This document shows positions 4,917-52,315 of a stretch of DNA of 52,315 bases, piece by piece. The stretch comes from Anaerolineae bacterium (GTDB lineage: Bacteria > Chloroflexota > Anaerolineae > Aggregatilineales > Phototrophicaceae). Numbering within the stretch: position 1 is the first letter of the stretch; each line of letters opens with the position of its first letter. Below the pieces are notes generated by a model that searched no databases, was not told the origin of the DNA, and worked only from the letters and a program-made list of their open reading frames with translations. The translations under genes were made by a program, and so were the position numbers. The stretch lies in the NCBI GenBank assembly GCA_030950085.1, contig JAUZRW010000128.1, forward strand, positions 1 to 52,315. Reading direction: 5' to 3'.

Positions 4917-6539
4917 ATGACATATACAGCCCATATTGATACGTTTGCCCGTGACAATTTACCACCCCAAGACCAATGGGCAGATTTAATTTTTGATTTA
5001 CCTGAATTGCAATATCCCGACAAGCTAAATTGTGCTGTTGAATTACTCGATAAGGCGATTGATAACGGTTGGGGTGACAGAGTCGCTATCTTAGGCAACG
5101 GCATCCAATGGACATATAGCGAATTACTAGAAAAAGTCAATCAAGCGGCAAATGTTCTCACCGAAGATTTGGGGCTAGTTTCCGGTAATCGCGTGCTGCT
5201 ACGAGGAGCGAATCATCCTATGCTGGCAGTGACATGGTTCGCTGTGATTAAAGCAGGCATGATTGCTGTGACGACTATGCCCTTACTGCGTGCGAAAGAG
5301 CTAGGAGAAATTATCGACAAGGCACAAGTCCAAGTGGTCTTGTGTGATAGTCGCTTTGCGGATGAAATGCAGAAAACCGAATCAGACTATCTCAAGCAAA
5401 CGCTGTATTATTTTACAGATGCCGCAGATGGTTTTGAATCGCACATGGCAACAAAATCCACTGATTTTGCGGCTGTTGATACCGCCCTTGACGATACTTG
5501 TCTGATAGCTTTCACATCCGGTACAACAGGCATACCCAAAGCAACCATGCACTTTCACCGCGACGTGATGGCAATCTGCGACACATTCCCTAAATCTGTT
5601 GTAAAAATACAGGCAGACGATATTTGCATCGGCTCTCCCCCACTAGGATTTACCTTCGGCTTAGGCGGCATTTTACTATTTCCAATGCGTGTCGGCGGAA
5701 CGTCAATTCTAATTGAGAAATATAGCCCTGAAAGTTACCTCCAAACCATTGCTGATTTCAAAGCGACAATTTCTTGGACTGCCCCCTTCTTCTATCGCAA
5801 GATGGCAGACATCGCCGCAAATTATGATTTGTCATCACTGCGAAAGACCATTTCAGCAGGTGAGGCGCTTCCGGCAGCAACACGCAAAATCTGGAAAGAG
5901 GCGACAGGCATTGAGATGATTGATGGCATTGGCGCAACTGAACTTTTACATATCTTCATATCACACACCGAAGACGAGGCAAAACCGAATGCAACGGGGA
6001 AACCTGTGCCGGGTTATCAAGCAAAAGTTATTGATGAAAACGGCAATGAAGCCCCCGTCGGAACAGTCGGACGACTCGCTGCTAAGGGACCCACAGGATG
6101 CCGCTATCTCGCCGATGACCGTCAAACAGTCTATGTCCAAGATGGCTGGAATATCACAGGTGATTCGTATTTGGTCGATGAAGAGGGTTATTTTGTCTAT
6201 CAAGCGCGAAGTGATGACATGATTATTACGACGGGCTACAATGTGGCGGGGCCAGAGGTTGAAGGCGCTTTGTTGAAGCATGATTCTATCGCAGAATGTG
6301 CTGTTGTCGGTGCGCCAGATGAAGAACGCGGCACGATTCTCAAGGCATATATTGTATTGCGTGAGGGTTTCAAGGGCAGCGATGAATTGGTGAAAGAATT
6401 ACAAGATTTTGTCAAAAACGACATTGCACCGTATAAATATCCGCGTGCGATTGAATTTATCTCTGCTTTGCCGCGCACACAAACAGGCAAAGTACAACGC
6501 TATGTCTTGCGTCAACAAGCATGGCAAGAAACAAAGTAG
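4917..6539 (+). CDS. Benzoate/2-aminobenzoate-CoA ligase
   Basis: The 540-residue adenylate-forming enzyme carries the AMP-binding P-loop AFTSGTTGIPKATMHFHRD (about 199-217), the motif GIGATELLHIFIS, which resembles benzoate-CoA ligases, and a C-terminal catalytic lysine motif TQTGKVQR. It would activate the aromatic acid to its CoA thioester with ATP, the first step of the pathway. The RBS AGGGAG precedes the ATG. An 85-base gap separates it from the acyl-CoA dehydrogenase gene on the same strand. Substrate choice between benzoate, anthranilate and salicylate is inferred from the neighbouring fused monooxygenase and RidA genes. Confidence 0.84.
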   Translation: MTYTAHIDTFARDNLPPQDQWADLIFDLPELQYPDKLNCAVELLDKAIDNGWGDRVAILGNGIQWTYSELLEKVNQAANVLTEDLGLVSGNRVLLRGANHPMLAVTWFAVIKAGMIAVTTMPLLRAKELGEIIDKAQVQVVLCDSRFADEMQKTESDYLKQTLYYFTDAADGFESHMATKSTDFAAVDTALDDTCLIAFTSGTTGIPKATMHFHRDVMAICDTFPKSVVKIQADDICIGSPPLGFTFGLGGILLFPMRVGGTSILIEKYSPESYLQTIADFKATISWTAPFFYRKMADIAANYDLSSLRKTISAGEALPAATRKIWKEATGIEMIDGIGATELLHIFISHTEDEAKPNATGKPVPGYQAKVIDENGNEAPVGTVGRLAAKGPTGCRYLADDRQTVYVQDGWNITGDSYLVDEEGYFVYQARSDDMIITTGYNVAGPEVEGALLKHDSIAECAVVGAPDEERGTILKAYIVLREGFKGSDELVKELQDFVKNDIAPYKYPRAIEFISALPRTQTGKVQRYVLRQQAWQETK

Positions 6540-6680
6540 CCCTGACAAATAGCATGAATACTGTTCCTAATAGCACGATTTATAGGGACACACTTGTTGC
6601 ATCCAAAATGAAGCTAAATAACCTGAGTTTTGGATAAGCACAGAAAATGTGTTTTTTCGGCAAATTATGGATTTTCGGGC

Positions 6681-6708
6681 GTAAGGGCGCAATACATTGC
6701 GCCCCTAC
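6681..6708. repeat. GTA(A/G)GGGCGCA-type palindrome, copy 1
   Basis: The 28-base element has GGGCGCAAT at 6685-6693 and its exact complement ATTGCGCCC at 6696-6704, flanked by GTA and CTAC. Another 28-base version with the same ends lies at 18759-18786. Such short palindromes are a dispersed intergenic repeat. Confidence 0.6.
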
Positions 6709-6759
6709 AACGGACTATGACCTTTTATGTCCCTCATTTTCGATGAAATCCTTAAACAA

Positions 6760-6893
6760 GTAACTGTTCACCTATCCATTGAACTTGGGCTGTCGCGGAC
6801 GTGAAAAATCGCGTCCCTACGGTTCAAAAATCATTATTCGTAGGGACAGCTTCTGCCTGTCCGAAGGAATCTCACGGATAGCTGAATAGATAC
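6760..6893. mobile_element. 134-bp MITE with terminal inverted repeats and 8-bp target duplication
   Basis: The left end GTAACTGTTCACCTATCC (6760-6777) and the complement of the right end, GTATCTATTCAGCTATCC (from 6893 inward), match at 15 of 18 positions. The element is flanked by a perfect 8-bp duplication TTAAACAA (6752-6759 and 6894-6901). Ends starting GTAA and 8-bp duplications are features of the IS66 family. The interior has no ORF, only two stem-loops (arms 6797-6801/6812-6816 and 6843-6848/6857-6862). The right end is almost identical to the terminal repeat beside the transposase fragment at 52177, so it is probably a non-autonomous derivative of that element. It explains most of the 405-base gap between the ligase and ridA genes. 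Confidence 0.82.
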
Positions 6894-6944
6894 TTAAACA
6901 AAATTCACATTAAATAAATACGATTATTTGGGAGTATAGTCATC

Positions 6945-7415
6945 ATGCAAATTCTACAGCCACCCGATTGGGCAAAACCACGCGGTTACTCCAATGGCAT
7001 TGTCGCCAGTGGACGGATTGTATTCATGGCGGGGCAAATCGGTTGGAATAGTCGTCAAGAATTTGTGACAGAAGATTTTGTGGAGCAAACACGCCAAACC
7101 CTTGAAAATATTTTGGCGATTTTAGAAGAAGCAGGTGGCGAAGCACAGCATATTACACGCATGGTCTGGTACGTCGTCGATAAGCAAGAATACCTCAGTT
7201 GTGGTAAAAAACTCGGCGTGGTCTATCGTGACTTAATGGGCAAGCACTACCCTGTCATGACAGCCGTACAGGTCACAGCCCTCATGGAAGATAAGGCACG
7301 AGTAGAAATCGAAGCCGTCGCAGTAATCCCATTAGAACGCGGCACCCGTGAAAAATTTGAAGCCGCCCTTGCCCAAGTTGCTGATATCGAGCCAGAAGAG
7401 CATGACAAACTGTAG
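6945..7415 (+). CDS. RidA/YjgF family enamine/imine deaminase
   Basis: The 156-residue protein has the RidA trimer fold signatures: an N-terminal YSNGIVASGRIVFMAGQIGW, a central TRQTLENILAILEEAGG, and PVMTAVQVTALMEDKARVEIEAVAVIP near the end. RidA proteins hydrolyse reactive enamines or imines to ketones plus ammonia. In an anthranilate-CoA pathway the reduced product keeps its ring amino group as an enamine, so a dedicated deaminase makes sense here. This assignment of role is inference. The start at 6945 is preceded by GGGAG at a spacing of about 10. The gene was separated from the ligase by the MITE insertion. Confidence 0.83.
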   Translation: MQILQPPDWAKPRGYSNGIVASGRIVFMAGQIGWNSRQEFVTEDFVEQTRQTLENILAILEEAGGEAQHITRMVWYVVDKQEYLSCGKKLGVVYRDLMGKHYPVMTAVQVTALMEDKARVEIEAVAVIPLERGTREKFEAALAQVADIEPEEHDKL

Positions 7416-51774: not shown

Positions 51775-52180
51775 CTATCTTGCCCTCACATCCAATTGAA
51801 TGTCTAGCTATTGCATATTATACAATGCTTTACACGAACAGTCGGCTACTTAATGATAGAAAGCCGTTACAATAGGACAAACAGGCTACTTGTTTAACAA
51901 ACTATCTGCGATAACACCTTAACATCGGTCTCACTTTGCAATTTTGTGTGAGGCGCAGTAAAACCCCGAAAGGGGCTTATCCAACGACAAAACCTTTATT
52001 CATTAATAGCGTGATGACAGGCTTATCATGACTTGAACACTCCAAAAACAGCTTTTAACCTGCATACCAATTCTGCAAAGCCCTCAAGCATATCAAGAAA
52101 AATTATTGAGAGCATGAAACTACAGACCTGTTAAAGCCCCTAAAAATCCTTATTGACATTTAAGAAAATTTTGTGCGTAT
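51775..52180. other. 406-base intergenic region
   Basis: No gene is seen. It holds a -10-like TATAAT on the minus strand (51817-51822) about 45 bases before the SH3 gene start, the second copy of the two-block module (51889-51979), and the outer flank of the IS element at 52177. Confidence 0.45.
51889..51979. repeat. Two-block dispersed module, copy 2 (upstream of the SH3 gene)
   Basis: CTTGTTTAACAA at 51889-51900 and, exactly 40 bases on, TCTCACTTT at 51929, ending in CCCCGAAAGGGGCTT. It matches the module at 10222-10310 in both blocks and in spacing. On the minus strand CCCC-TTTC-GGGG-TTTT is a compact hairpin with a T-tail. Both copies lie in the upstream region of a minus-strand gene. 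Confidence 0.55.
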
Positions 52181-52199
52181 CTATTCAGCTATCCATGAG
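52177..52199. repeat. Terminal inverted repeat of the IS element at the window edge
   Basis: GTATCTATTCAGCTATCC, then ATGAG, matches the right end of the MITE at 6871-6893 at 22 of 23 positions (opposite orientation). The transposase stop codon lies inside it. The other end of the IS is outside the window. Confidence 0.65.
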
Positions 52200-52315
52200 A
52201 AATCAGGCTGTGGTGCAAAAATCATCTTGAGTGTTTCAAAGATAGACTGCCCCTGACGGCGAGCCGTTTCAAGGATGGAGATGAGGTTGGCGTAAAGTTC
52301 AGCGCCCCAATCCGA
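52181..52315 (-). CDS. Transposase C-terminus, IS66-like (partial, cut by window end)
   Basis: The last 44 codons of a minus-strand gene are present. They read SDWGAELYANLISILETARR, then QGQSIFETLKMIF, ending FSWIAE. The helix pattern, with ETARRQGQ and a leucine/phenylalanine-rich end, resembles IS66-family transposase C-termini, but 44 residues are little to go on. Support comes from the GTAT-ending terminal repeat and the 8-bp duplication of its presumed MITE, both IS66-like. The element is probably intact beyond the window. Confidence 0.55.
   Translation of the reverse strand, partial: SDWGAELYANLISILETARRQGQSIFETLKMIFAPQPDFSWIAE

Follow-up and report, generated by a model that had tools for sequence, protein, structure and literature searches.

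The 134-bp element that lies in front of a RidA-family gene in the window, the whole stretch of 52,315 nucleotides that was analysed (contig C33 of a 5.09-Mb draft genome consisting of 266 contigs, completeness 97.03), is very probably a non-autonomous derivative of IS66-B, a resident high-copy insertion sequence of the IS66 family, that is moved in trans, carries a REP pair as enclosed cargo and has landed in the right end of a second repeat, R2, a preferred target of IS66-type elements. The derivation from IS66-B is based on its IS66-B-like ends, the 8-bp target duplication, the many relatives of the element and its position in a copy of R2 that is otherwise uninterrupted.

The segment 6752-6901 reads TTAAACAA-GTAACTGTTCACCTATCC...GGATAGCTGAATAGATAC-TTAAACAA. 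The first-pass annotation had reported here a 134-bp element with inverted ends agreeing at 15 of 18 positions and with an exact 8-bp duplication, and this description is confirmed at 6760-6893 (plus strand), where the element is now assigned to subfamily A of an IS66-type MITE. Its left terminal inverted repeat GTAACTGTTCACCTATCC covers 6760-6777 (plus strand), its right terminal inverted repeat GTATCTATTCAGCTATCC covers 6876-6893 (minus strand), and the two copies of the target duplication TTAAACAA, represented by a single copy at empty sites, occupy 6752-6759 and 6894-6901. The element lacks coding capacity, with no ORF of at least 80 amino acids in the ORF list overlapping it, and its fold as single-stranded DNA beats 200 of 200 shuffles (z -2.92). 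The RidA-family gene (PF01042; 6945-7415, plus strand) is situated 51 bp downstream and a gene for an AMP-binding CoA ligase (4917-6539) on the other side; judging from its gene set, we take the surrounding cluster to encode an aminobenzoate-type CoA pathway. For the first-pass suggestion that the element may alter expression of ridA there is no support: a scan of 6500-7000 finds no promoter or terminator signal above shuffle level. Rfam gives no match across the window, and a distant-mode comparison of 6700-6950 with a plasmid collection gives no match either. As to its kind the element is ordinary, and its anatomy is unusually clear.

At E <= 1, 54 places in the same genome match the 134-bp element. 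The end pattern GTAWCWRTTCASCTATCC, with at most one mismatch, occurs 150 times in this genome versus 0 times for the reversed control, a count that takes in the ends of full-size IS66-B besides those of MITEs. Among 42 head/tail rows obtained from fetched stretches of the genome, a few of which are cross-pairs between adjacent elements, the duplication is 8/8 in 10 rows and 7/8 in another 5, so that the further copies with 8-bp duplications of their own, which the first-pass annotation had proposed as a check, are present in many places. Recent insertion, as had been read from the perfect duplication, is not borne out, since the closest other copy of the window MITE in the genome is only 92% identical and 8 bp are too short for dating. 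Complete elements of 110-160 bp number 38; the interior type of the window copy, with two hairpins, is found in 14 and a second type with one REP in another 14, a third type without a GTAG REP accounts for 8, and 2 stand alone. Members of a MITE subfamily C (L014:2482-2626, L079, L164, L185, and L192) contain CCACAGAG.../...CTTTGCGTC repeats instead of REPs, and the cargo therefore varies among MITE subfamilies.

Grouping of 182 distinct ends by their inward sequence reveals, apart from the MITEs, two large groups. In the first, which has 25 members (left ends), a leader and then a reading frame come next on the inner side; the second consists of 20 ends that each come after the end of the frame (right ends). 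GTATCTATTCAGCTATCC is the end of this full-size element, IS66-B, in 24 of the 25 left and 19 of the 20 right ends. The right end of the MITE is identical to both IS66-B ends at 18/18 positions and to the left IS66-B end at 25/26 over 26 bases, and the MITE left end agrees with IS66-B at 15/18, 3-4 of the 18 positions being different. Left and right flanks of IS66-B on different contigs have an exact 8-mer in common in 8 pairs (controls 0/300, 0/190, and 0/500). The IS66-B reading frame stops inside the terminal repeat GTATCTATTCAGCTATCC, and its C-terminal piece of 65 residues, measured on the copy at L083, matches NF033517 (IS66 transposase) at positions 331-384 of 387 with an E value of 1.4e-14, which is a partial match only. 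PF03050 remains below its cut-off on the same fragment (0.013; 15.4 vs 23.1 bits) and hits only two other loci in the genome, both of them partial. Because IS66-B copies break contigs, the interior is missing from the fetched parts of the assembly and the complete transposase gene is unread. The window itself ends in such a copy (L042): its last 139 bases (52177-52315, minus strand) are an IS66-B right end with the C-terminal transposase frame, cut by the contig end, and the terminal repeat at 52177-52194 is identical to the right repeat of the MITE.

Early end counts mix MITE ends and IS66-B ends, and the 15 pairs derived from these mixed ends include spurious rows, i.e., GAATAGAT twice, ATGAAATC, GATGAAAT, and one duplicate. 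In an early reading it was MITE copies that break contigs and there was no partner with exact ends; this reading was overturned, as the tails at contig edges belong to full-size IS66-B. Many of the places where the assembly breaks into contigs are explained by the ends of IS66-B and of a second resident element, IS66-A.

IS66-A (ends GTAACTGCTCAGG) is the more abundant of the two, with 75 exact end matches (43 left and 32 right ends; control 0) and, between contigs, 17 shared duplications of 8 bp (controls 2/903, 0/496, and 2/1376), and one might suppose that it is IS66-A that moves the MITE. Its duplications are AT-rich as those of the MITE are (GC 0.26 and 0.30), and the sites it targets obtain high scores under the preference of the MITE, which 0/5000 shuffles reach. 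MITE sites give p 0.20 when scored on the target preference of IS66-B and p 0.07 on that of IS66-A; the duplication GATGAAAT, which pairs a MITE with an IS66-B copy, was left out of this test, and the effect is weaker without it. The target duplications give no tie between the MITE and IS66-B. However, the terminal sequences of IS66-A agree with the MITE ends at just 10-11/18 positions versus 14-18/18 for IS66-B, and a role of IS66-A as the mover is unlikely.

The window MITE sits in the right end of R2 (6619-6912, plus strand), a second mobile-like repeat with 44 matches across the genome, which measures about 150 bp without the MITE and has imperfect inverted ends TAACCTGAG.../...CACATTA and a palindrome GTAAGGGCGCAATACATTGCGCCCCTAC at 6681-6708. 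At L036:970-1117, L253, L257, and other loci, R2 displays inverted ends TAACGCGAATC.../TAACGTGAATT... and the palindrome GGGCGCAATGC. An informal reading also shows putative duplications of 5 bp, ATCAT in L253 and L257 among them. Examination of 30 of the 44 matches identifies 19 R2 copies that are uninterrupted over their full length and 8 that have an IS66-type end at their right terminus, belonging to 4 MITEs (the one in the window included), 2 IS66-B, 1 IS66-A, and 1 element cut off by the contig edge. R2 is recognized in the outer 20 bp (at least 15/20) at 23/180 insert ends versus 3/180 random 20-mers from the window, and the 15 strongest R2-flanked ends (at least 17/20) fall on R2 positions 118-142 with one exception at position 93. 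As the inserts are found at differing R2 positions and in both orientations, they are mostly separate events. By chance, about 0.03 insertions into R2 are expected according to our estimate (some 140 insertions of IS66 type, with roughly 1 kb of target in 5.09 Mb), and the R2 terminus is an apparent hot spot for IS66 insertion.

When the flanks of the window MITE are joined (152 bp), 11 of 11 R2 copies drawn from the 19 uninterrupted ones align over the junction and are ungapped there. The best empty site, in L257, is identical at 146 of the 152 joined positions and contains TTAAACAA once, and in the empty R2 sites generally TTAAACAA, or a sequence close to it, is present in one copy. Related empty sites, which the first-pass annotation would have looked for in related strains, are thus found in paralogous R2 copies of the own genome, and neither of the two outcomes that it had named as refuting is seen.

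The two stem-loops that had been noticed inside the element are real, with GTAGGGAC occurring at 6813-6820 (minus strand) and 6840-6847 (plus strand) and being absent from the rest of the window. They are GTAG-tagged REPs that form an inverted, facing pair: hairpin 1 (6797-6820, minus strand) has its tag (CTAC) on the right side and hairpin 2 (6840-6862, plus strand) has its tag towards hairpin 1. GTAG-tagged REPs, inverted REP pairs and a GTAG-REP superfamily are treated in PMC3733652. In an alignment of 17 copies with 16 stem pairs, 95.1% of 264 cells are paired, and pairing falls to 26.6-41.8% if the partners are slid by 1-3 columns. Double changes affect 7 stem pairs and 21 cells (shuffle mean 5.5; 0/500 shuffles reach 21). 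This co-variation means that hairpins are kept or replaced as hairpins, and it does not indicate who benefits. One could consider the element more than a plain parasite, retained because it regulates ridA at the RNA or DNA level through hairpins in the transcript, given that it precedes ridA by 51 bp in a cluster of genes with the same direction and that hairpins are maintained with compensatory changes in many copies. However, MITE copies are scattered over the genome in unrelated places, REP turnover or palindrome correction can also yield co-variation, and the scan for promoters and terminators gave nothing above shuffle level, all of which makes such a function very unlikely.

Of 31 REP matches to the window sequence that were examined, from 30 loci fetched out of 56 genome matches, 26 adjoin a MITE end. 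The first-pass suggestion that the element spreads these palindromes therefore holds as an association, with 5 of the 31 REPs having no such end; one of these five, at L133, resembles a decayed MITE. A GTAGGG/CCCTAC tag is located within 30 bp of 6/45 IS66-B ends (window background 0.8%), unlike the situation near MITE ends (2/134), a difference that counts against the derivation from IS66-B, and IS66-B seems to insert in or near GTAG REPs, for example with its right ends at L055, L194, and L369. That the REP pair should be the basic unit, with a RAYT-type tyrosine transposase as its mover and the flanking inverted repeats being secondary, is hardly credible: although the MITE interior is a textbook GTAG REP pair (PMC3733652) and REP pairs without MITE ends occur (e.g., L115, L129, and L136), the exact 8-bp duplications lie outside the terminal repeats and neither they nor the empty sites coincide with the REP pair, which largely refutes this reading for the 134-bp element, one MITE subfamily (8/38 complete elements) has no GTAG REP, and the sole Y1_Tnp match in the genome, a 684-residue open frame, is a long protein that lacks the layout of a transposase. 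No RAYT gene was found in the draft genome, and such a fragmented assembly could be missing a multi-copy RAYT.

For IS66 loci elsewhere in the phylum, a candidate element with an exact 8-bp duplication and similar ends is obtained at 10 of 30 loci, and 7 of these candidates, with a size of 1.5-1.7 kb, have GTAACTA[CT]TCAG at both ends, as in GTAACTATTCAGGTCATC. Among 100 other genomes, 5 match the 134-bp element at E <= 0.001, mostly by the hairpin alone; G022 and G054 contain elements with like ends and different interiors. A PF03050 IS66 transposase was detected in none of the five genomes G022, G054, G038, G050, and G101, a result that initially spoke against IS66. Across the phylum, end matches, 1-3 per genome, occur in 18 of the 399 other genomes, and as the reversed-pattern control has matches in 9 genomes, most of the 18 are near background. 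One of the 18, genome G221 from the same class, possesses a related element (L201, from 1501 onward) that terminates in GTAACTACTCAGCTATCC and GTAACTGCTCATGA and shows the exact duplication AAAAAATC; an IS66 transposase was not found in the G221 genome. In a wider collection of genome contigs the end pattern occurs in two stretches, one from Nitrospira, which is without a second end and looks like a chance match, and one from KSB1. The latter (L109:4629-4788) is a 160-bp element that is flanked on both sides by ATTTATTT as an exact duplication; one of its ends equals the right end of the MITE, and inside it has repeats of the type TCATTCTGA.../...TCAGAATGA.

Identification of the element as a MITE, correct in the first-pass annotation, is strengthened by the copies, the duplications, the empty sites and a partner that has identical ends and bears a transposase. 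The IS66 partner, the nesting in R2 and the REP nature of the hairpins had all been overlooked. Most likely the element is selfish and non-autonomous, derived from IS66, and has taken up a REP pair between its ends. Judging from the common ends, the IS66-B transposase would bind them in trans and move the MITE. A REP pair would have been captured between two IS66-B-type ends and then copied along with them, and the AT-rich right end of R2 may serve as a favoured landing place for IS66-type elements. With the REP pair enclosed and copied in this way, MITE transposition is probably the main route by which REP pairs spread in this genome. A broader and somewhat doubtful proposal is that in this lineage, in which no RAYT gene was found, GTAG REPs hitch-hike in MITEs moved by IS66, exchanging tyrosine-type for IS66-type spread, and that targeting of the R2 terminus builds nested clusters. 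If this is true, a dispersed hairpin family switches from single-strand tyrosine transposition to DDE (IS66) transposition, which offers a possible and testable route for the spread of REP hairpins without RAYT. GTAG REPs, a MITE and the IS66 insertion sequence to which it belongs, usually treated apart, are joined here within a single genome, whose sequence shows the source and the derivative together with the cargo, the target and the empty site. The R2 terminus provides a defined hot spot for work on IS66 target choice, and for the assembly itself the finding accounts for many contig breaks.

As a rule, IS66 family ends begin with GTAA. The left end of the MITE starts with GTAAC and its right end as well as both IS66-B ends with GTATC, so that one MITE end departs from GTAA. 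The ends listed for ISPa75 in PMC12888890 are GTAAGCG... and GTAACCG..., and for ISDge4 (IS66/ISBst12) PMC12898284 gives the ends GTGACTACTCAGCA/GTAACTGCTCAGCA together with a direct repeat of 8 bp. As in this ISBst12 group of the IS66 family, there are GTAACT..TCAG-type ends and an 8-bp target duplication, and the right-end frame of the full-size partner matches an IS66 transposase; unlike IS66/ISBst12 elements, the 134-bp element is gene-less. With the GTAG REPs of PMC3733652, which are reported in that paper from Chloroflexi as well, the hairpins share an 8-bp stem with the tag at its foot and the inverted pairing; unlike the REPs described there, they occur in a genome in which no RAYT gene was found and mostly inside an IS66-type MITE. 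An IS66-derived MITE was not found in the literature searched, which comprised openly available text and neither subscription papers nor ISfinder. Bacterial MITEs such as Nezha, RUP, NEMIS, and ERIC (PMC3733652) or MITEPsy1 (PMC3189936) resemble the element in their size of 100-300 bp, terminal inverted repeats, non-coding nature, target duplication, foldable interior, and parent IS with matching ends. In contrast to those MITEs, the element here has IS66 as its parent, its interior consists of a REP pair or, in other subfamilies, of different dispersed repeats that have been swapped, and it is nested in a second mobile-like repeat.
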